This document shows, piece by piece, positions 642-22,444 of a stretch of DNA of 25,985 bases. Every line of letters begins with the position of its first letter. The first letter of the stretch is position 1. The stretch is taken from positions 1 to 25,985 of IMG/VR virus record IMGVR_UViG_3300025266_000038; one strand, written 5' to 3'. The notes beneath the pieces were generated by a model. That model ran no database searches, was not told the origin of the DNA, and worked only from the letters and a program-made list of their open reading frames with translations. Position numbers and translations under genes: made by a program. The DNA comes from a virus.

Positions 642-3179
642 ATGGCCAACCCCTTTTTACAAATAATCAACAGCGCCCGAAAAGCCGGTATTAAGGGGTA
701 TCATGGTTCCCCTCACGACTTTAATGAGTTTAAAACCTCAGCTATCGGCACTGGCGAAGGCGCACAACAGTATGGCCGTGGGTTTTACTTTGGGGAGGCT
801 GAGGAAGTTGCTAAGCGATATCGTGACCAGTTAACGCCTAGAGACTTAGATTACGAAGATTGGTTGACTGAGAAGTATAAGGCCGCTGAAAGTAATCAGG
901 ACTACGCTCGCATGGAAATGTATGAGAGAGCGATGTTGAACGAAACGCCGCAAGATTTTAAAGACTTAGCGGCAGACGTTGATTACGACGAAGATTACAG
1001 AGCGTTGGCCGCTGAGGTCGGAGAAGAGATCGAGGAGTATGGCCCAGATCTTGGCCACATGTACGAAGTCAACATCGATGCCGACCCTGATGAGCTTATC
1101 GATTGGGATGAGCTGATTGACGAGCAGCCGAAGAAGATCATGGACAAGCTCAAGAAGGCGGATTGGTGGGAGTACGCTGAAGAGGGTATTTACGAAAGCG
1201 CGGGGATTCGAGGCGATAACCCTACAGGCGCTGATCTTGTTCGTTGGCTTGAGCGGGATGGTCAAGAGTATGCGGCTGAGGCGCTAGAAGATTTAGGTGT
1301 CAAGGGCATCAAGTACGCTGACGCGTTTACTCGGCACAAGCCGAAGGACAAGCGCTCCAGTAATTACGTCATATTTGATCCTCGTATCATAGAAATCAGC
1401 AAAAAATACGGAATTTCTATTCCCCTTGCGTCAGCGGTAGCTGCTGGCGGCATGACTCCAGAGGAGGCCCAGGCCGGGGGCATTAAATCAGTTGCAAATG
1501 AAGGCATCCGTTCTTTGGATGAAACCTTGGAATTTGATCCACGATTTGATCCCCGGATACGGGAGAAGGAAGGTTTGCAGTCCCTTCGAGTCGATGTGCT
1601 ACCAAGAAATGAATCAATGGTTAAGCCGCCTATTCGTTTATCCGAACTTGAGGGTGAAGATTTTGTTACCTCGATGGCTGACCGTACCAGAGCTGGCGGC
1701 ATGATTATGGGCGTAAATGACGTGCCCCTGTACCGCGCTGTAGATTTGCGTGGTGGGCAGGACTTTATGTTCGAGAATCCCAATCAGGTTTGGGCTTCTG
1801 CGAAGGTTCCTAGTGAGAAGATTCTTGAGATGGCTAGAGAACTTCAGGGTCAGTCTGGCAAAGATCCGATATTTATTCCTTGGAGAATGGCCCCTACTGG
1901 GGGTGATTTCTCCAACATGGTTGGCGAGTTGATGCTTGGCTTTGCCTCATCCAACATGAATAAGACCACTAAGAAGGCTTTTGACGTTGCGGTCAGGAAA
2001 TATAGGACCAAGGGTTCTATAGACAAAGGCGTCAGGAAAAATGCTGGCTTAAAAATAAAAGAATGGCCCGGAGTTGACGATCCAAGAGCGGTTGAGATCT
2101 GGCGATCCACCCCTGATGCTGTCAGAAAAGAACTGATGAACATGATGGACGTAAATTTCAGGAAGGAAGGCGGCTTGTCGATTGGCGCTGCTCGCCTCGC
2201 GGCATCCGATCCGACGCAGTTAATGTCCAGAGACGCTGGCTTACAGAATGTGGGCAGGATTTATACTGGCCGAGATATCGCACCTTCCACGCACCCGTCA
2301 TATCCATACGCGGTTCCCGGCGAAGGTATAGGAGCGCTCAAAGGTGCTGATGAGGTGACGATATTTGACCTGTTGCCAGATGCTCGATTTGGTGACGCGC
2401 AGAAGAAAGTTAAAGACCCCGCCAACCCAACTGCGCGAGAGGTTCGCGCCCTTCAGATGAAGCCTTATGGCGGGACGATTACTGAAAATATTCTGCGAAG
2501 GATTGAGGAGAGAGGTGTTGATGTTAATTCACTTGTTGGCATATCTCCTGGCGCATTGGCCTTTACGCTAACTTCTGCTGGTCTTTTGACTCCAGAGGAG
2601 GCTGCTGCGGGTGGTCTTGATGAAGTTGCTGAGGTTTTTAGTAGCACGAAAGATGGTATGGGCGTTAAGTCGAAAAAACCAAAAGAACAAATTGCCTTTA
2701 AGGCTGCAAGTCCAGAAATAAAATCTCCTGGCCTGCCTTCCCTCGCTGGCCAGTTAGGTTTGGGGGCTATGAGCGAAATTGGCGGAGTTTTAGCAGGCGG
2801 CGCGGCAGGTGTTGGCGAATACCTACGGGGTGGTTTGAGCGGACCCGAGTATGTGTACCCTTTTAATGAGCCTGCTACGGCTGAAAGTATTCGAGATGCT
2901 CGTGAAGGTACGTCTGAATTTGTCGGCGGTTTGTACGATGCTGGCCCTGAAGCCCAAGAGTTTGGTCAAGAGATCATGCGGGGTATTGGCGAGGAGATTG
3001 CTCCGATTGCAGAATATGCGATGAAGGGTCCGATTATGGACGAGCGTGGCTTGAACATGTTGCCGCTCATCGCTCAGAAGCTTGGCATTCCTGCTTATCA
3101 GCTTGCAGAAATGTTGTTTAATAAACTGCCAGAACGAGAGCAAGAAGCGGCGATTAGTGCTTCAGACGTTTTTCTTTAA
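642..3179 (+). CDS. Large polyvalent protein with N-terminal ADP-ribosyltransferase-like domain
   Basis: An 845-residue multidomain protein. Residues 19-55 carry an ART-like signature: YHGS (H21), then YGRGFYFGE (Y44, Y49), as in the ART module of phage polyvalent proteins. The module appears to close around residues 217-250 (GIKYAD, then SNYVIFDPRIIEI). Two similar Ala/Gly-rich linkers with TPEEA-x-AGG follow, at about 257-281 and 632-655, flanking a second domain of unknown function. Residues about 690-730 are hydrophobic and Gly/Ala-rich and could interact with membrane. Polyvalent proteins of this kind are thought to be packaged in virions and delivered with the DNA to modify host targets. 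That role is inferred here. Transferase activity and the catalytic Glu/Gln cannot be confirmed by eye. Its 3' end overlaps by 4 bases a gene on the other strand. Confidence 0.65.
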   Translation: MANPFLQIINSARKAGIKGYHGSPHDFNEFKTSAIGTGEGAQQYGRGFYFGEAEEVAKRYRDQLTPRDLDYEDWLTEKYKAAESNQDYARMEMYERAMLNETPQDFKDLAADVDYDEDYRALAAEVGEEIEEYGPDLGHMYEVNIDADPDELIDWDELIDEQPKKIMDKLKKADWWEYAEEGIYESAGIRGDNPTGADLVRWLERDGQEYAAEALEDLGVKGIKYADAFTRHKPKDKRSSNYVIFDPRIIEISKKYGISIPLASAVAAGGMTPEEAQAGGIKSVANEGIRSLDETLEFDPRFDPRIREKEGLQSLRVDVLPRNESMVKPPIRLSELEGEDFVTSMADRTRAGGMIMGVNDVPLYRAVDLRGGQDFMFENPNQVWASAKVPSEKILEMARELQGQSGKDPIFIPWRMAPTGGDFSNMVGELMLGFASSNMNKTTKKAFDVAVRKYRTKGSIDKGVRKNAGLKIKEWPGVDDPRAVEIWRSTPDAVRKELMNMMDVNFRKEGGLSIGAARLAASDPTQLMSRDAGLQNVGRIYTGRDIAPSTHPSYPYAVPGEGIGALKGADEVTIFDLLPDARFGDAQKKVKDPANPTAREVRALQMKPYGGTITENILRRIEERGVDVNSLVGISPGALAFTLTSAGLLTPEEAAAGGLDEVAEVFSSTKDGMGVKSKKPKEQIAFKAASPEIKSPGLPSLAGQLGLGAMSEIGGVLAGGAAGVGEYLRGGLSGPEYVYPFNEPATAESIRDAREGTSEFVGGLYDAGPEAQEFGQEIMRGIGEEIAPIAEYAMKGPIMDERGLNMLPLIAQKLGIPAYQLAEMLFNKLPEREQEAAISASDVFL

Positions 3180-5659: not shown

Positions 5660-8600
5660 ATGGCAACTTTTGTAAATGATTTGCGGCTAACCGAATTAGC
5701 GACTGGAGAAGGCTCCGGTTCTTGGGGCACGACCACAAATGTCAGCTTAGAGCTAATTGGCGAAGCTTTAGGCTACGCGACCCAGCAGGTCTTCGGCTCT
5801 GACGCAAACGCAACGACTACGGTTGCGGATGGTGCTTCTGATCCTGCTCGCGCAATGTACTTTAAGGTTACGTCTGCGGGAAATTTGACTGCGACGAGAA
5901 CCTGTACAATTGCACCTAATACTGTAAGCCGCGTGATGTTCATTGAGAACGCAACGTCTGGCTCTCAGTCAATTGCAATCTCCCAAGGCTCTGGCGCGAA
6001 CGTCACGATCCTGACCGGAAAAACAGCAGTCGTTTATCTCGATGGTGCTGGTTCTGCTGCAGCGGTTGTCGATGCGATGGCGGGGGTCGATCCTGGTGTG
6101 ACGGATACGCTTACAGAAGTGCTTGTTGCGGGTAATGCGTCAGGTGGCACTAATATCGAATTAAGCACAACCGATAAGGTTCAATTCCGTGATGCAGCGA
6201 TCTACATCAACTCAAGCGCAGACGGCCAGCTTGATATTGTCGCAGACACAGAGATTCAGATTGCTGCGACTACAATTGATATTAATGGCGCTATTAACGC
6301 AAGTGGTGAGATTATTGCGGCTAGTTTAGATATTAGCGGCAACATAGACGTAGATGGCACAACTAATCTAGATGTCGTTGACATCGATGGTGCTGTAAAC
6401 ATGGCAACCACTGCTCTTGTTACAGGTGTTCTTACTACAACAGCGGCTACTGTGTTTAACGGTGGCTTTGCTTCTAACGCAGTTTCAACTATTAGCACAG
6501 CCGATAACAATCCACAGCTAACACTTATTTCTACTGATGCAGACGCAGACGCAGGGCCAGCATTAAAGCTGTTTAGAAATTCAGCTTCTCCGGCTGATAA
6601 TGACCTGATGGGTAAAATACAGTTCAGTGGTGATGATGACGCAGGTAATGAATCGACTTTTGCAACAATCATTGTAAAAGCAACTGATGTTTCCAACGGT
6701 GCAGAAGACGCTTCAATGATATTTTCTCCTGTTCTTGCTGACAGTTTTCCTGCGGCTCTGACGTTGACAGGAGCAGGAGCTACTTTTAATTCTAGTGTGA
6801 CGGCTGGTGGAACACTGATAGCAACCACGGGCGTTTATACCGGAGATGGTAATCTTTATGGAGTCGAAGCTGGGATTATTATGCGTGATAGTGGAGGACG
6901 CGAAATAGCAACTTTCCACGATACTGGCTTAGGAACAAGCAATGTTGCAATGGGCATCAACGCAGGTAACAGCATTCAGAGCGGGGGTAATTATAATACT
7001 GTCGTGGGCGATGAAGCGGGTACTGCGATTACTACGGGTGATAAAAACGTATTTGTTGGTTGGAGCGCAGGTGATGCTACTAATACAGCAAGCAATAATG
7101 TTGGCATAGGTGCTGAGTCTTTAACTACAAACAGTACAGGCGCTAACAATGTAGCCATAGGCACAGGCGCTTTAGCCTCTAATACAACAGCTTCTGCTAA
7201 CACCGCAGTTGGTCATGATACTTTAGTAGCAAACACCACAGGTAGAGACAATACCGCTGTAGGCTTTAGCGCAGGAGTGACTAACACTACTGGAATTGAG
7301 AATACTGCCATTGGTATGTACGCCTTGAGATTTAACACTACAGGCAATACCAACGTAGCTGTAGGCTTGCAAGCACTTCACCGAAATACAACCGCATCTA
7401 ACAACACGGCTGTTGGTATGCAGTCACTGGAGGCAAACACTACAGGCGCAGGTAATACTGCTTTAGGTTCTTTAGCTTTAGACGCAAATACCACTGCTGC
7501 TGACAATACTGCGGTTGGTTTTCAAGCATTAACGACAAATACTACGGCTGCTAACAATACTGCGGTAGGCGTAAGTGCCTTAAAACTTAATACAACAGGC
7601 GCGTCAAACACAGCCGTGGGAAGAAGTGCTTTATTAGCAAACACCACAGCGGCTAACAACACAGCAGTTGGTTATGCTTCTTTATCCGCAAACACCACAG
7701 GCGCTAGCAACACAGCTATGGGCAAAGATGCACTTAAAGCAAACACCACAGGCCTTCAAAATACTGCCATCGGTGCTTTAGCGGGTGATGCAATTAATAC
7801 GGGAGACGAAAATGTAACAGTCGGTTATAACTCTTTAACTACTAATACAAAAAGTTTTTATAATGTTGCAGTAGGTAACTCCGCTCTAGCAGCACATAAT
7901 CTTACTTCTGATGGGGCAGGGCATAACACAGGCATTGGGCATAACGCAGGAGCAGCAGTCACCACGGCAACTCACAACACCCTCATTGGTGCACTCGCAG
8001 GAGACGCTCTTACAACAGGATCGTCAAATGTTGCGGTGGGGTATTTAGCTTTAAGCTCTGACGATGTTGGTCAACACAATGTAGCTATTGGGCGACAGGC
8101 ACTAGAAAGCCTAAATATAGCCTCCGCTGCAAACACTTATAACACGGCAGTCGGTTCTAGCGCAGGAGCCGCAGTAACCACGGGCACAAATAACACTTTT
8201 ATAGGTGGTCTATCAGGAGATGCTAATACTACAGGTGGATCTAACACGGCAGTTGGTTATGCTTCTTTATCCGCAAACACTACAGCGAGTGCAAACACAG
8301 CAGTAGGTAAAAATTCTGCACTTTCAAATACTACTGGTTCTAGTTTAACGGCTCTTGGATTTGCCGCACTTCAAACCAACACCACTGGCGCTAATATGGT
8401 TGCTTTGGGTAGGGGCGCTTTACTTGCTAACACTACAGCAAGTAACGGCACAGCAGTTGGTTATCTTGCTTTAAGCGCAAACACTACAGGTGCAGGTAAT
8501 ACAGCAGTTGGTAAAGGTTCATCCTTAACAAACACCACAGGGACATTAAATGTTTCAATGGGTCAAGATTCTCTAGGACTGAACACAACCGGAGATAACA

Positions 8601-10057
8601 ATGTAGCTATAGGAGAAAGTGCTTTATATAACAATACCACAGCGAGTGCAAACACAGCAGTTGGTAAGAGTGCTTTAGTACACAACACCACAGGTACAAA
8701 TGGAGTAGCAATTGGGTTCCAAGCCTCCCTATCAAACACCACAGGAGGTCAAAACACTTCTATCGGTTGGAACGCTTTTGGTACTAATACTACAGGCTCT
8801 GACAACACGGCACTGGGTAAAAGAGCCTTACACGCCAACACAACAGCAAGTAATAATACAGCCGTTGGGACTAACTGTTTATTACTTAATACCACGGGAG
8901 CAGATAATACCGCAGTTGGTGCGTTCGCGTTAGACGCTAACACCACAGGGGCAAATAACGCCAGCCTTGGTCACCTATCTTTATCCAGCAATACAACTGG
9001 GAGTAACCATACTGCTCTTGGATATGGGGCGCTTTTAAACAATACCACAGGCGGAGATAACGTAGCTGTTGGACGGAATGCTTTAACTGCAAACACTACA
9101 GCAAGTAGTAACACCGCAGTCGGTCGGAGTGCAGGAGCCGCAGTAACCACGGGCACTCAGAATACCCTTGTAGGTGCTCTTGCAGGTGATGCACTTACTG
9201 ATGCTGACTTTAATGTGGCAATAGGTGTTACAGCTCTGGGTGGAGATACATTAGGAAGTAAATCTACAGCTATTGGTTACAGCACCCTGGTAAATCAAAA
9301 CTTTACATCAGCTACTGATACCTTTAATACGGCAGTGGGTTATGAAGCAGGTCAATCAGTAACCACGGGCGTAGAAAATACTATCGTGGGGGCGCTTGCC
9401 GCTGACGCAATGACCACTGGAGACTCTAATACATTTATTGGTAACAGCTCTGCTGGAGCCGGAGTCGTTACTGGAGATAGCAACACAGCAGTCGGTAAGT
9501 CTTCCGGCCTTAATTTGACCAGTGGTTCTAATAACTTATTTCTAGGTCACGATGCAGGTATTTCAGGAAGTCCCGGCGGTAATATAACAACAGCTTCCAA
9601 CGAAATATCTTTAGGTGATGAAAATATCAGTGCCGCAAATATCCAAGTAGATTGGACAGTAGCTTCTGATGCAAGAGACAAGACAGACTTCACTGCCCTA
9701 GACCTTGGCTTAGACTTTGTAAAAGCTCTAGCACCTGTCACGTACAAGTGGGACAAGCGTTCTAAGTATGGTGACAAGACCGCTGATGATTATGACCTCA
9801 ACGCACAGACTCCAGACGGCACTCACAAAGAAGATTGGCTAGACATTGGTTTTAAAGCTCAAGAAGTAGAAGCCCTAGAAATAGCGGCAGGTTACAACAA
9901 GAGCAATAAGACTAACCTAGTCTCTAGTCACACAGGTGATGGCAAGCAGATGGGTCTACAGTACAGCAAGTTTGTACCAATCCTAGTCAAAGCTATGCAA
10001 GAACAAAACGCCTTAATCGAAGCATTAACCGCACGAATCGCAACCTTAGAAGGATAA
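5660..10057 (+). CDS. Giant tail fibre with YadA-head-like repeats and S74 intramolecular chaperone
   Basis: A 1465-residue fibre. Residues 1-140 form a conserved-looking virion-attachment region (TGEGSGSWGTTTN near the start). Residues about 140-425 are a beta-rich shaft with an IDINGAI / LDISGNIDVDG pattern. Residues about 428-1320 contain roughly fifty 17-residue units of the type NTAVG-x-x-AL-x-x-NTTG, like the left-handed parallel beta-roll of trimeric YadA-type adhesins. Residues about 1335-1465 match the Peptidase S74 domain: ASDARDKTDF with the Ser-Asp cleavage site, and GFKAQEVE at about 1397. This domain trimerises and folds the fibre, then cuts itself off, and ends in a coiled coil. 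The protein is probably the receptor-binding fibre. A ribosome-binding site (AAGAAGGGG) precedes the start. Confidence 0.9.
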   Translation: MATFVNDLRLTELATGEGSGSWGTTTNVSLELIGEALGYATQQVFGSDANATTTVADGASDPARAMYFKVTSAGNLTATRTCTIAPNTVSRVMFIENATSGSQSIAISQGSGANVTILTGKTAVVYLDGAGSAAAVVDAMAGVDPGVTDTLTEVLVAGNASGGTNIELSTTDKVQFRDAAIYINSSADGQLDIVADTEIQIAATTIDINGAINASGEIIAASLDISGNIDVDGTTNLDVVDIDGAVNMATTALVTGVLTTTAATVFNGGFASNAVSTISTADNNPQLTLISTDADADAGPALKLFRNSASPADNDLMGKIQFSGDDDAGNESTFATIIVKATDVSNGAEDASMIFSPVLADSFPAALTLTGAGATFNSSVTAGGTLIATTGVYTGDGNLYGVEAGIIMRDSGGREIATFHDTGLGTSNVAMGINAGNSIQSGGNYNTVVGDEAGTAITTGDKNVFVGWSAGDATNTASNNVGIGAESLTTNSTGANNVAIGTGALASNTTASANTAVGHDTLVANTTGRDNTAVGFSAGVTNTTGIENTAIGMYALRFNTTGNTNVAVGLQALHRNTTASNNTAVGMQSLEANTTGAGNTALGSLALDANTTAADNTAVGFQALTTNTTAANNTAVGVSALKLNTTGASNTAVGRSALLANTTAANNTAVGYASLSANTTGASNTAMGKDALKANTTGLQNTAIGALAGDAINTGDENVTVGYNSLTTNTKSFYNVAVGNSALAAHNLTSDGAGHNTGIGHNAGAAVTTATHNTLIGALAGDALTTGSSNVAVGYLALSSDDVGQHNVAIGRQALESLNIASAANTYNTAVGSSAGAAVTTGTNNTFIGGLSGDANTTGGSNTAVGYASLSANTTASANTAVGKNSALSNTTGSSLTALGFAALQTNTTGANMVALGRGALLANTTASNGTAVGYLALSANTTGAGNTAVGKGSSLTNTTGTLNVSMGQDSLGLNTTGDNNVAIGESALYNNTTASANTAVGKSALVHNTTGTNGVAIGFQASLSNTTGGQNTSIGWNAFGTNTTGSDNTALGKRALHANTTASNNTAVGTNCLLLNTTGADNTAVGAFALDANTTGANNASLGHLSLSSNTTGSNHTALGYGALLNNTTGGDNVAVGRNALTANTTASSNTAVGRSAGAAVTTGTQNTLVGALAGDALTDADFNVAIGVTALGGDTLGSKSTAIGYSTLVNQNFTSATDTFNTAVGYEAGQSVTTGVENTIVGALAADAMTTGDSNTFIGNSSAGAGVVTGDSNTAVGKSSGLNLTSGSNNLFLGHDAGISGSPGGNITTASNEISLGDENISAANIQVDWTVASDARDKTDFTALDLGLDFVKALAPVTYKWDKRSKYGDKTADDYDLNAQTPDGTHKEDWLDIGFKAQEVEALEIAAGYNKSNKTNLVSSHTGDGKQMGLQYSKFVPILVKAMQEQNALIEALTARIATLEG
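6941..9620 (+). repeat. 51-bp coding repeats of the tail fibre
   Basis: A long array with 51-bp periodicity encodes NTAVG-type units. It is broken at about 7015, 7945, 8161, 9131 and 9347 by variant units encoding AG-x-x-VTTG-x-x-NT and ALAGDALTTG. Some stretches are identical at DNA level: 32 bases at 7664-7695 recur at 8249-8280. The array can expand, contract or recombine, and is also prone to assembly collapse. Confidence 0.85.
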
Positions 10058-15229: not shown

Positions 15230-17727
15230 TGGCTATTGATAAAATACTTGGCACTGAAAACGATCCAGATGTCATTCCTATGTCGCGAGAGATGACGGTA
15301 ACGCCAGATCCTAGTCGCGAAGATATGATCAGGGGTGCTGCCCAAATATTGGTGGACGAAGAAGAAATACTGATTGACGAAGAGATTAGCGCCGCTCCAG
15401 AGCCGATTCAAACCCCGTTCGATTCAAACTTGGTCGATTTTCTCGACAAATCAGACCTTGGAAAGCTTGCAAACGATGTCTTGGAGTCTATTGATTCGGA
15501 CAAAGAAAGTCGTTCTGAGTGGGAGAAGACCTATGTTGAAGGGTTGAAGTACCTCGGTATGAAGTTTGACGAAGCAAGATCTCAACCGTTCCAAGGGTCT
15601 TCTGGCGTAATTCATCCAATTCTTGCAGAAAGCGTTACTCAGTTCCAGGCGCAGGCTTATAAAGAGCTTTTGCCAGCGCAAGGACCGGTTAAGACTGAGA
15701 TTGTTGGCGCTCGCACGCCAGAAATTGAAATGCAATCTCAAAGGGTTGCCAATTTCATGAATTTCTACATCATGAACGTGATGCAGGAATATGACCCAGA
15801 GCTGGACATGCTTTTGTTTTATCTTCCCATCGCGGGTAGCGCGTTCAAGAAGGTTTACTACGACCAATCTATGAGCCGAGCGGTTTCAAAGTTCGTCGCC
15901 CCAGAAGACTTGATCGTTCCTTACGAGGCTTCTGACATTCTTTCTGCTGAGCGGGTTACGCACGTCATTAGGATGAGCAAAAACGAAATTCGCAAGCAGC
16001 AGCTAAGCGGTTTTTACGCAGATATTGAGCTAAAAGGCGATGCTTACACAGTTAACCGTAGCGACATCGAAGAAGAGATTGACGAGATTGAGGGTCAGTC
16101 CCCCAGCTATTCTGAGAACCGAGATAGGATTGTCTACGAAGTTCATACCATACTCGACCTTCCTGGTTACGAAGACTTTGACGCCGAGGGCAACGAAACG
16201 GGTTTAAAACTTCCTTACATCGTGACAATTGACGAGCAATCTCAGCAGGTTTTGGCGGTCAGAAGAAATTATGTAGAGCAAGACATTACTAAACAAAAAA
16301 TAAACTACTTCGTTCAGTACAAGTTCCTACCTGGCCTAGGATTCTACGGCCTAGGCTTGTCTCACATGATTGGCGGTCTTGCAAAGGCTTCAACGTCTAT
16401 TCTTCGGCAGTTGATTGACGCTGGTACGATTGCTAACTTGCCTTCAGGATTCAAGGCCAGAGGAATGCGGATTCGAGATGAAGACGAGCCTCTTCAGCCC
16501 GGAGAATTCAGAGATATCGATACGACCGGCGGTTCTTTAAAAGAAAACTTGATTCCTTTGCCCGTGAAAGAGCCTTCAAACGTCTTGATGCAGCTTTTGG
16601 GCATGTTGATTGACTCAGGTAAGCGGTTTGCGTCTATTGCTGACACGAATGTGGGCGATGTAAACCAAGCGATGCCTGTCGGTACCACGGTCGCTTTATT
16701 GGAGCGCGGCACCAAGGTGATGAGCGCAATTCACAAGCGCCTGCACTACGCTCAACGTATTGAGTTTCAACTTCTAGCTAAAGTATTTTCTGAATACCTG
16801 CCGCCAATGTACCCTTATCAGGCTCTTGGCGGCGCCCAAGAGGTCAAGCAGACTGACTTTGACGGGCGTGTTGATGTTATTCCTGTGTCAGATCCCAACA
16901 TCTTTAGCCAGTCTCAAAGAATCACGATGGCTCAAGAACTTATGCAGCTTGTCCAGTCAAACCCTGAGATTCATGGGCCGAAGGGGGTTTATGAGGCTTA
17001 TCGCAGGATGTATTCTGCGCTGGGAATTGACAATGTTGACAGCCTTCTGCAGCCACCACCGCCACCGCCACCACCACCTGCTCCAATTGATGCAGGCATC
17101 GAAAACGGCGGCTTTATGATGACGCAGCCTCAGCAAGCTTTTGAGCAACAAAATCATCAGGCTCACGTTGACACTCACAGGTCTTTGTTCCTGACTGAGG
17201 TGGTGAAAACCAATCCACAGTTGCAGGCCTTGATTATTGGGCACAGTATGCAACACCTTCAATTCATGTCTACCCAGATGGCAAAGAAAGAGATGCCACC
17301 CCAGATACAGCAGCAGGTTCAGCAGCTTGAGCAGCAAATGTCGCAAGTAGCCCCGGAACAACAACCTCAAGTGGTTAGTCAGATTCAAATGATTACTGAG
17401 AGCTTTTCGTCTCCAATTATGGCTAAGTTGGCGCAAGACTTTTTGTTGTCAATTGGGCAGGGCGATGAAGAAGACCCACTCGTTAAGATTCGACAAAAAG
17501 AGCTGGATCTAAGAGAGCAAGAATTGACTGCTGATCAAGGTCAGTTTGAAGATAAACAGTCTCAGCGTGGCGAAGAAAAGTTGCTTGAATCTCAGATAGC
17601 CAAACAGCGTATCGGTGTTCAAAAAGAAGTGGCTGACGACAAGCTCGACATGGCATCTCAAAGACTTGAGCAGCAGGCCGAGTTGAAAATGCTTGAATTA
17701 CAAGCTAAATTTGGAGGTACACGATGA
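15229..17727 (+). CDS. Portal protein
   Basis: An 832-residue portal, the dodecameric ring at the capsid vertex through which DNA passes. The core (about residues 70-600) has features of podovirus-type portals: GSSGVIHPILAESVTQFQAQ, the LDMLLFYLPIAGSAFKKVYYD region, and a central GLGLSHMIGGLAKASTSILRQ segment. The C-terminal extension is unusual. It has a run of nine prolines at about residue 608, a Gln-rich stretch at about 680-725, and a charged coiled coil from about 750 to the end. It could reach into the head or interact with internal proteins. The gene lies immediately after the terminase and overlaps the next gene (ATGA). At 832 residues it is longer than P22 portal (725). Confidence 0.92.
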   Translation: MAIDKILGTENDPDVIPMSREMTVTPDPSREDMIRGAAQILVDEEEILIDEEISAAPEPIQTPFDSNLVDFLDKSDLGKLANDVLESIDSDKESRSEWEKTYVEGLKYLGMKFDEARSQPFQGSSGVIHPILAESVTQFQAQAYKELLPAQGPVKTEIVGARTPEIEMQSQRVANFMNFYIMNVMQEYDPELDMLLFYLPIAGSAFKKVYYDQSMSRAVSKFVAPEDLIVPYEASDILSAERVTHVIRMSKNEIRKQQLSGFYADIELKGDAYTVNRSDIEEEIDEIEGQSPSYSENRDRIVYEVHTILDLPGYEDFDAEGNETGLKLPYIVTIDEQSQQVLAVRRNYVEQDITKQKINYFVQYKFLPGLGFYGLGLSHMIGGLAKASTSILRQLIDAGTIANLPSGFKARGMRIRDEDEPLQPGEFRDIDTTGGSLKENLIPLPVKEPSNVLMQLLGMLIDSGKRFASIADTNVGDVNQAMPVGTTVALLERGTKVMSAIHKRLHYAQRIEFQLLAKVFSEYLPPMYPYQALGGAQEVKQTDFDGRVDVIPVSDPNIFSQSQRITMAQELMQLVQSNPEIHGPKGVYEAYRRMYSALGIDNVDSLLQPPPPPPPPPAPIDAGIENGGFMMTQPQQAFEQQNHQAHVDTHRSLFLTEVVKTNPQLQALIIGHSMQHLQFMSTQMAKKEMPPQIQQQVQQLEQQMSQVAPEQQPQVVSQIQMITESFSSPIMAKLAQDFLLSIGQGDEEDPLVKIRQKELDLREQELTADQGQFEDKQSQRGEEKLLESQIAKQRIGVQKEVADDKLDMASQRLEQQAELKMLELQAKFGGTR

Positions 17728-20874: not shown

Positions 20875-21792
20875 ATGGCTATTTCAAGAGCACAACTAGC
20901 AAAAGAGCTAGAACCCGGCTTGAACGCATTATTCGGTATGAGCTACGACTCTTACGACCGAGAGTACGAGGAAGTCTTCGCAATTGAAGATTCTCAGCGT
21001 GCATTCGAGGAAGAAGTTCTCATTACCGGCTTCGGTTCAGCCCCAACTAAAACTGAAGGTCAAGGCGTTGTCTTTGATAACGCTGGCGAGTCGTACTCGG
21101 CACGTTACAACCATCAGACAATTGCGCTGGCATTTGCACTTACAGAGGAAGCTGTTGAAGATAATCTGTATGACAGTTTAGGCAAGCGGTATGTCAAAGC
21201 ACTTGCGCGTTCTATGGGTAACACCAAGGAAGTAAAAGGCGCTGATGTGCTGAACAATGCGTTCAGCGGAACCTACACTGGCGGCGATGGCGTTTCTTTA
21301 ATCAACACAGCTCACCCTCTGTCTGGCGGCGGTACTGCCGCTAACCGAGCAGCGACTATGGCTGATTTGAATGAAACTTCGTTGGAAGACGCTTTGATCG
21401 ATATTAGCACTTACACCGACGACAGAGGACTGACCATTTCGGTTCAGGCGACTAAATTAGTCGTACCTCCTCAGTTGGTATTCGTTGCTGACCGAATTTT
21501 GAATTCGGACAAGCGATCTGGCACTGCTGACAACGATCTCAACGCGATTAAGAGCACTGGAGTTCTGCCAGGTGGTTACACTGTTAACCATTATCTGAAC
21601 GACCCAGATGCCTTCTTCCTGTTGACTTCAGTCACAGACCAAGGCGAAGGTCTCAAGATGTTCCAACGCTCCGCGATGGAAACTTCTATGGAACCTGACT
21701 TTTCAACCGGAAACATCAGATACAAAGCGCGTGAGCGTTATAGTTTCGGATGGTCCGATTGGCGAGGCATTTACGGCTCACAAGGAGCCTAA
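20875..21792 (+). CDS. Major capsid protein (HK97-fold, Mu gpT-like)
   Basis: A 305-residue capsid subunit. The N-terminal ELEPGLNALFGMSYDSYDREY region, TEEAVEDNLYDSLGKRYVKA, and the NTAHPLSGG and LVVPPQLVFVADRIL strands match the Mu gpT-type family of HK97-fold capsid proteins. The C-terminus (RERYSFGWSDWRGIYGS) is the usual aromatic-rich end. Length is normal for this type. The gene has a strong ribosome-binding site (AAGGAG) and is followed within a few bases by a strong terminator, consistent with high expression. There is no fused protease or long N-terminal delta domain, so a separate scaffold is expected; one is encoded upstream. Confidence 0.93.
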   Translation: MAISRAQLAKELEPGLNALFGMSYDSYDREYEEVFAIEDSQRAFEEEVLITGFGSAPTKTEGQGVVFDNAGESYSARYNHQTIALAFALTEEAVEDNLYDSLGKRYVKALARSMGNTKEVKGADVLNNAFSGTYTGGDGVSLINTAHPLSGGGTAANRAATMADLNETSLEDALIDISTYTDDRGLTISVQATKLVVPPQLVFVADRILNSDKRSGTADNDLNAIKSTGVLPGGYTVNHYLNDPDAFFLLTSVTDQGEGLKMFQRSAMETSMEPDFSTGNIRYKARERYSFGWSDWRGIYGSQGA

Positions 21793-21796
21793 AAAG

Positions 21797-21822
21797 AAAG
21801 GGGCCGAAAGGCCCTTTTTTTT
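21797..21822 (+). terminator. Intrinsic terminator after the major capsid gene
   Basis: GGGCC (21801-21805) pairs with GGCCC (21810-21814) around a GAAA tetraloop. The stem is extended by AAAG with TTTT, and followed by a run of T to 21822. This is a textbook rho-independent terminator. Confidence 0.88.
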
Positions 21823-21863
21823 GTCACAAGATTGCCCTAGAATGACAAACAACTGAGAAAAAA

Positions 21864-21922
21864 GCCCCAGCGACTGGCTCAGCAGACGTTTACGAAGACT
21901 CTGGGGCGAATCCTTTCGTAAA
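21864..21922 (+). promoter_or_regulatory. Interlocked inverted repeats: possible pseudoknot in leader of next gene
   Basis: GCCCCAG (21864-21870) pairs with CTGGGGC (21901-21907). TTTACGAA (21889-21896) pairs with TTCGTAAA (21915-21922). The second left arm lies inside the first loop and its right arm lies outside, giving H-type pseudoknot topology. The element ends directly next to the GAGG ribosome-binding site (21923-21926) of the gene starting at 21935. No tRNA or known riboswitch is recognised. Confidence 0.5.
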
Positions 21923-21934
21923 GAGGTTAATACC

Positions 21935-22444
21935 ATGGCACAAACTACTTTTTCTGGACCCGTTAAATCCTTAGCTGGTTTTATTACCGCAGGCGTAAAC
22001 AGCACAGTCAGCCTTGCCGCAGGCACTTCTCTTACTGTAGCGGATCATGCAGGCAAAATTATTTTGTTAAATGACGCAGACGGCAAGTTTAAACTGCCAA
22101 CTATTAACGTCACTACCCCTGACGATCCAACGGCTCCGAGTCAAGTAAACAATACAGGTGCTTCTTTCTTCTTTTATGTAGAAACCGCAGCAACCGATCT
22201 TGACATTTTGACTGACGGCACTGATAAGTTTATTGGCGCGGCAATGGTCGCTGTAAATGATGGCGCTAAAAAAGCGTTTATTCCTGCAGTCGCTAACGAT
22301 GTCATGACCTTAAATGGCTCAACTAAGGGTGGACTCGTCGGCAGTGTTATTAAAATTACTGCTATTGACGCTGCACTGTACTTAGTTCATGACACTTTAT
22401 TGCTAGGTACAGGAACAATTATTACTCCTTTCGCTGATGCTTAA
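21935..22444 (+). CDS. Probable virion beta-structural protein (169 aa)
   Basis: A 169-residue Thr/Ala/Gly-rich protein starting MAQTTFSGPVKSLAGF, a beginning common in small head or fibre proteins of marine phages. The body is almost all beta strand (VSLAAGTSLTVADHAGKIIL), with no Cys and few charged residues, as in trimeric decoration or head-fibre proteins. It is expressed after the terminator and behind the structured leader, so it probably has its own control. The RBS is GAGG, nine bases from the ATG. A virion surface role is inferred from composition and location. Confidence 0.65.
   Translation: MAQTTFSGPVKSLAGFITAGVNSTVSLAAGTSLTVADHAGKIILLNDADGKFKLPTINVTTPDDPTAPSQVNNTGASFFFYVETAATDLDILTDGTDKFIGAAMVAVNDGAKKAFIPAVANDVMTLNGSTKGGLVGSVIKITAIDAALYLVHDTLLLGTGTIITPFADA

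Follow-up and report, generated by a model that had tools for sequence, protein, structure and literature searches.

In the SAM-II and preQ1 riboswitches one strand of a pseudoknot has its end at or within the Shine-Dalgarno sequence, as in the element described here, and the leader pseudoknot of T4 gene 32 takes part in autogenous translational control. Our element differs from the two riboswitch types in having no family match to them and in being tied to a virion gene, not to metabolism. A closer relative is Mu-gpT-DE, for which Weinberg and others in 2017 are reportedly the source. Its Rfam entry, RF03012, has a structure line of four pairs, one A, a five-pair hairpin, 13 unpaired bases and again four pairs. 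In the literature searched the family is named only in PMC7657543, where it is counted as one of the families for which the structures in Rfam and in ZWD disagree and lack covarying pairs. A literature search that covered few papers of subscription journals gave none that joins a structured RNA to a cement protein; the wider family may be published. In the T4 case, a phage mRNA leader is reportedly subject to feedback by the gene product (PMC535899). The likeness to our locus is that both are phage mRNA leaders (here the feedback would be presumed), and there is no kinship of sequence or gene.

We analysed the virus record IMGVR_UViG_3300025266_000038 over its 25,985 nt (hereafter the window), and we discuss the element by window coordinates. 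An earlier note on this DNA had held that the element matches nothing known to its author. This turns out not to be so: the same core occurs in the same place as the published Mu-gpT-DE (RF03012) in a related phage, Roseobacter phage CRP-902, where RF03012 gives a match of 72.3 bits between the capsid gene and the next gene.

The locus and its predicted fold

The capsid gene and the gene that follows are separated by a gap of 142 bases, as the earlier note had it. The two stems that it reported there are both exact: a GC-rich stem of 7 bp, GCCCCAG (21864-21870) with CTGGGGC (21901-21907), and a perfect stem of 8 bp, TTTACGAA (21889-21896) with TTCGTAAA (21915-21922). Read from the sequence, the stems interlock within 21864-21922, and the last base of the second adjoins GAGG at 21923-21926. 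The statement that the gap otherwise holds only a terminator must be amended, since a -10-like hexamer, TAGAAT, is present as well. The description as an H-type pseudoknot is correct in that two helices interlock, but these are just part of what we predict to be a fold of four helices (P0, P1, P2 and P3) forming two interlocked knots, with the strand order a-b-a'-c-b'-c'. P1 is longer than first described, comprising nine positions (21864-21872 with 21899-21907) with one C.U mismatch that is absent in many relatives. The first loop contains the hairpin P3, whose own loop pairs upstream with 21853-21857 to form P0. The features of the locus, with the evidence for each, are as follows.

20875-21792, + strand: major capsid protein gene, Mu gpT-like (Pfam PF25209, PF10124; PHROG 371)
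21801-21822, + strand: intrinsic terminator of the capsid gene, GGGCC-GAAA-GGCCC then eight T (sequence)
21838-21843, + strand: -10-like hexamer TAGAAT, 9 nt before strand a (similar hexamers in relatives)
21853-21857, + strand: P0 5' strand (a), CTGAG (partner-swap test; several complementary pairs in relatives)
21864-21872, + strand: P1 5' strand (b), GCCCCAGCG (covariation)
21873, + strand: single-A linker between P1 and P3 (invariant in alignment A3)
21874-21876, + strand: P3 5' strand, CTG (CTG/CAG, CCG/CGG and CAG/CTG versions)
21878-21882, + strand: P0 3' strand (a'), CTCAG, within the P3 loop (partner-swap test)
21883-21885, + strand: P3 3' strand, CAG (CTG/CAG, CCG/CGG and CAG/CTG versions)
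21886-21887, + strand: conserved AC 3' of P3 (invariant in alignment A3)
21889-21896, + strand: P2 5' strand (c), TTTACGAA (swap test; invariant in 20 near relatives, alignment A2)
21897-21898, + strand: conserved GA 5' of the P1 3' strand (invariant in alignment A3)
21899-21907, + strand: P1 3' strand (b'), CTCTGGGGC (covariation)
21915-21922, + strand: P2 3' strand (c'), TTCGTAAA, abutting the Shine-Dalgarno sequence (sequence, swap test)
21923-21926, + strand: Shine-Dalgarno core GAGG (sequence)
21935-22444, + strand: 169-aa virion gene with N-terminus MAQTTFSGPVK, probable cement (decoration) protein

PDB searches with the capsid protein of the window gave no convincing relative, and a nucleotide search of named phages with the window gave no match. 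A pattern scan reported the terminator on the minus strand only. TAGAAT is the probable promoter of the leader. In 22 of 43 clusters a -10-like site precedes the element by 5-10 nt, as compared with a mean of 7.5 and a maximum of 14 in 200 shuffles (one of 44 clusters was omitted because it has too little upstream sequence); about half of the clusters lack such a site at the expected place, and a sigma-70 consensus scan of the window found no two-hexamer promoter. Between terminator and leader, a 7-base inverted repeat, TTTGTCA/TGACAAA (21820-21826/21843-21849), spans the -10-like site and might serve as an operator or form an alternative hairpin.

Phage DSL-LC04 has in this position a gene annotated as 'cement protein', whose product the window protein resembles in just the first 12 residues, of which 10 are identical. 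On this basis a cement identity is likely, though not certain, for the window gene. The 169-aa protein had no Pfam, PHROG or PDB match, and its AlphaFold model is poor (mean pLDDT 47.7). Elsewhere in the window, positions 642-3179 encode an 845-aa protein with a weak, below-cut-off match to the polyvalent-protein ADP-ribosyltransferase domain, and positions 5660-10057 a repetitive, tail-spike-like protein of 1465 aa with a C-terminal S74 chaperone domain.

Stems of this kind also arise by chance. When the gap is shuffled by dinucleotides, interlocked Watson-Crick stems of 7 and 8 bp appear in 28 of 3000 shuffles; they are also present in 3 of the 364 tiles of 142 bases that cover the whole window, one of which is the site of the element; the other two overlap and share a second interlocked 7+8 pair inside the portal gene (15621-15833), probably by chance. 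The stability of the nested fold is not unusual relative to shuffles either (z of -0.34). Because stems alone are thus a chance event of about 1% and the nested stability is ordinary, the case for the element rests on its relatives.

Compensatory change among relatives

We searched viral contigs for relatives of the capsid protein and of the downstream protein, which yielded 159 loci, and further searches brought the total to 658 (locus numbers below carry the prefix L), many of which are overlapping copies of one contig. A related element is visible by eye in distinct upstream stretches of these relatives. Five loci with short flanks were left out, as were loci in which less than 70 nt precede the start or the match did not begin at the N-terminus. 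A parse by pairing alone shifts the helices in the Mu-gpT-DE subtype, and no counts were taken from it.

Among the 20 near relatives of alignment A2, in which P2 does not vary, eight pairs in P1, P3 and P2 taken together have changed on both sides; 38 cells are changed in this way, compared with 9.4 after shuffling, and 96.6% of all cells are paired. In the 24 diverse aligned cores of alignment A3, 94.4% of P1 and P3 cells are canonical (68.5% when shuffled) and 87 cells have changed on both sides (23.4 when shuffled), neither value being reached in any of 500 shuffles. These double changes affect all nine pairs of P1 and one of P3, and the ten invariant columns of A3 lie mostly within or beside P3. 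The covariation score of the 24 cores is 0.783, as against 0.249 when shuffled and at most 0.168 when slid. With 13 more sequences, which were collected by a model and are hence fitted to that model's structure, 95.9% of cells are paired and the score is 0.878, as against 0.209 when shuffled. On segments defined by conserved anchors, and so chosen regardless of P1 pairing, 199 of 225 P1 cells are canonical, whereas partner swaps give a mean of 127.5 and a maximum of 152 in 2000 swaps.

P0 and P2 also exceed partner swaps, the observed value being reached in 0 of 300 for each. At least five contiguous P0 pairs are present in 25 of 25 clusters (46.5% of swaps), and at least five P2 pairs in 60% of the 25 (30% of swaps); these totals include L354 and L409, which are really of another type and were excluded afterwards. 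Besides CTGAG/CTCAG of the window, P0 takes the forms CTAGG/CCTAG, CCGAG/CTCGG, CCAAG/CTTGG, CCTAG/CTAGG and CTGGG/CCCAG. Six or more P2 pairs occur in 15 of 23 window-type clusters, with variants that include TTACGAA/TTCGTAA, GTATAG/CTATAC, GTTATAG/CTATAAC, CATGCGG/CTGCATG and TTTGCAC/GTGCAAG. From these swap results, P0 is well supported, and P2 is supported in part of the family.

The earlier note had proposed covariation in related phages as a check, and had named uncompensated disruption of both stems as counter-evidence. P1 and P3 prove strongly compensatory, and P2 is backed in part of the family; relatives do not break P1 without compensation, and P2 is reduced to 3-4 contiguous pairs in 8 of the 23 clusters (L257, L265, L307, L268, L059, L062, L028 and L209). 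In searches of 75 and of 100 sources, all model matches with E below 0.001 fall on the coding (+) strand; a further sample of 37 sources was chosen for carrying the element. Since paired bases co-vary around a fixed core, the element almost certainly acts as RNA, and from the alignments we have next to no doubt that it is a real, conserved one.

Relation to Mu-gpT-DE and the wider family

Mu-gpT-DE and the window element have in common the core P1-A-P3-AC...GA-P1', and both lie between a Mu gpT-like capsid gene and the virion gene that follows it. They differ in that P1 of the window is long and stands apart from the Shine-Dalgarno sequence; the window element also has the P0 and P2 knots, and it lacks the UAGCCA and CAGGAG sequences of Mu-gpT-DE. 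In Mu-gpT-DE the 3' strand of P1 holds Shine-Dalgarno bases (CAGGAG), whereas P1' of the window ends at 21907 and its Shine-Dalgarno sequence begins at 21923; P2 takes the place of the Shine-Dalgarno pairing.

RF03012 itself misses the window record, giving 0 matches even at E up to 10 (its gathering score is 49 bits). An Rfam cmscan of the window likewise returned nothing above threshold, riboswitch and ribozyme families included; its weak matches to terminator-like sRNAs were set aside as chance. When RF03012 was run on 20 records plus 12 of a bridging type, one match exceeded the cut-off, that in CRP-902, and none did so in the 12 bridging-type records. Weak RF03012 matches also occur in 13 of 14 control genomes.

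In the reverse direction, we used a model, R2, built solely from the window and bridging types, without the Mu-gpT-DE subtype. On 30 loci of Mu-gpT-DE type (111,239 bases), R2 gives 11 matches at E up to 10; by chance alone, one would expect about ten at this threshold, scattered over the sequence. All 11 fall within about 60 bases before the start of the cement-type gene, at the element; the best E is only 0.013, so that the shared place carries much of the weight in this test. In a search of 34 loci, R2 weakly matches a type with a TATAGT loop (best E 0.00035).

The core can also be sought literally. Defined as the literal A, C..G, AC and GA plus pairing, a strict core is found in 45 of 75 non-redundant class-1 leader clusters, as compared with a mean of 0.55 and a maximum of 2 in shuffled sequences, and in 0 of 14 class-2 clusters. 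Ten further window-type clusters miss it solely by a P1 mismatch or a too-short run, and about a dozen clusters keep just a GAC-flanked hairpin or spaced GACs, without the full core. Because the core reads [G]A[C..G]AC...GA[C], class-1 leaders are enriched in GAC above every other trinucleotide (212 observed, 101 expected); two or more GACs occur in 73 of the 75 class-1 clusters (32 expected) and in 1 of 14 of class 2. The leaders of L176, L180 and L251 keep only a GAC-flanked tetraloop hairpin, and the persistence of such hairpins suggests that the core bases are read by something.

Given that RF03012 misses the window, that R2 matches the Mu-gpT-DE type and that the core is shared, we take the window element to be a new variant of the same superfamily and not a member of RF03012 itself: by its sequence, a divergent, more knotted variant of a superfamily that includes Mu-gpT-DE.

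The downstream gene and the proposed role of the leader

The phages that carry the element are marine and freshwater. Two pattern scans, neither of which used protein information, found at least 50 and at least 114 distinct elements, of which at least 46 and at least 104, respectively, precede a start of the MxTTFxGP type. Among the listed elements of the first scan there are one variant start (L434), two cuts by contig ends and one chance match (L466); among those of the second, one variant (L564), six contig-end cuts, one chance match (L642), and two elements (L567 and L632) that directly follow the capsid gene and precede other N-termini. In these two the element (L567, 2589-2680; L632, 3697-3783) stands before proteins beginning MGFATHLGPW and MALSTTQSIW, which by eye seem to have the 151-aa cement body; in L567 pairing is conceivable between CCTAG, a loop strand, and CTAGG of the Shine-Dalgarno sequence. 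Both cases weaken the idea that the RNA is explained by the N-terminal arm MxTTFSGPV alone. The same leader type can stand before several protein bodies, and the same body behind several types of leader. Given these free combinations, together with L567 and L632, no single protein feature tracks the RNA.

The element adjoins the cement-type gene even where 818-1613 nt separate the latter from the capsid gene (L119, L121, L122, L123, L128, L138 and L150). L119, L121, L123, L128, L138 and L150 have extra sequence upstream of the leader, with room for one or more genes. Capsid relatives that are 81-89% identical can carry a different, TGGT-rich leader before THFTSGV proteins, and the core is found in 0 of 14 clusters of such leaders. 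Capsids that are only about 63% identical (L083, L085-L088) have the window-type leader and a cement-type protein 88-90% identical to that of the window. The leader follows the downstream gene rather than the relatedness of the capsid gene. It stays with that gene across recombination, as is expected of an autogenous phage translational operator; leader and gene travelling together is also what plain physical linkage predicts.

A second leader, before genes for cement-like proteins that start with MTTHFTSGV, consists of ATGG, a hairpin, CTGGT and then the Shine-Dalgarno sequence, and its stem seems compensated; the loci concerned (L009, L012, L013, L015, L022, L036, L038 and L049) have nearly the same capsid protein. 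Five GTDB contigs from four metagenome-assembled bacterial genomes (L654-L658) also hold the cement-type gene, with leaders that by eye are four of window type and one Mu-gpT-DE-like; these are probably phage contigs binned with bacteria.

The earlier note had suggested an RNA that bears on the next virion gene, with translation control, a processing or stability role and response to a protein product as its candidate uses. That the RNA is structured and bears on this gene is well supported by the compensation, the fixed place and a helix that adjoins or includes the Shine-Dalgarno sequence. P1 takes in Shine-Dalgarno bases in 21 of the 45 strict-core clusters, and in two more CTTG/CAAG, beside GAG, replaces CCTG/CAGG. 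We consider it highly probable that the element serves the downstream cement-type gene as a structured 5' leader. In many phages the RNA would start at a promoter of its own after the capsid-gene terminator. Its fold would crowd the Shine-Dalgarno sequence in the window type and base-pair with it in the Mu-gpT-DE type, in either case lowering initiation. A trans factor, most plausibly the cement protein or else some other late protein of the phage, would read the conserved A, AC and GA around P3 and shift the balance, and such feedback would match the amounts of cement and capsid protein.

A cement-gene leader of the Mu-gpT-DE superfamily, switched by a trans factor, is our best explanation overall, at roughly an even chance of being right; on the sequences, arguments for and against a translational switch as such are likewise evenly poised. 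That its ligand would be the cement protein is possible but doubtful: the protein is without a known RNA-binding fold or feature, leader types and bodies are freely combined, and two N-termini have changed. Less likely again is an operator of a head gene that keeps the A, AC and GA because a protein reads them, while the RNA architecture is repeatedly rebuilt (double-knotted, Shine-Dalgarno-pairing, loop-to-upstream knot, bare hairpin) around one assembly-linked feedback; free cement protein, as opposed to the capsid-bound form, would then shut off its own translation.

It is also possible, if rather unlikely, that the element is a 5'-end mRNA stabiliser or translation enhancer that gives constant high expression and has no ligand, the knot at the start of the transcript blocking 5'-end-dependent decay or keeping the ribosome-binding site open. 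The upstream -10-like site would indeed put the fold at the transcript start in about half of the clusters, and phage GP4 requires as many copies of cement as of capsid protein (540:540). A Shine-Dalgarno sequence inside P1, as in the Mu-gpT-DE subtype, would nevertheless be costly for a pure enhancer, and a plain hairpin would suffice, yet the unpaired A, AC and GA are kept across rewired helices.

Conserved unpaired core bases are also what a metabolite- or ion-sensing riboswitch with translational output would have, and translational riboswitch layouts, which the window resembles, include a pseudoknot ending at the Shine-Dalgarno sequence. We nevertheless find such a riboswitch improbable, because the element precedes one kind of virion gene and not metabolic genes, because reduced types lack P1 and P2, and because no riboswitch family reached threshold in the Rfam scan. 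It is very improbable that the element is a self-cleaving ribozyme, or a site at which processing releases the cement mRNA from that of the capsid gene. The pistol ribozyme has the strand order a-b-a'-c-b'-c', as does the window, but its conserved bases are different; neither the pistol covariance model nor any other Rfam ribozyme matches the window, invariant bases are few (the ten columns of A3), and the upstream terminator already separates the two genes. An element acting as DNA, in recombination, packaging or replication, can be given hardly any credence, for although this is a site of gene exchange, with extra genes before it and varied cement bodies after it, the interlocked and compensated P0, P1 and P2 need a single strand, and the model matches keep to the coding strand.

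In the superfamily described here, a narrow Rfam family without a function is widened to a large group with a clear gene partner, and provides a natural experiment in which RNA architecture changes and a small core stays. If the leader is switched by a trans factor, it would tie translation to capsid assembly, in a way open to testing, in widespread marine phages, for which isolates with cultured hosts exist (HTVC023P, HTVC027P and CRP-902).
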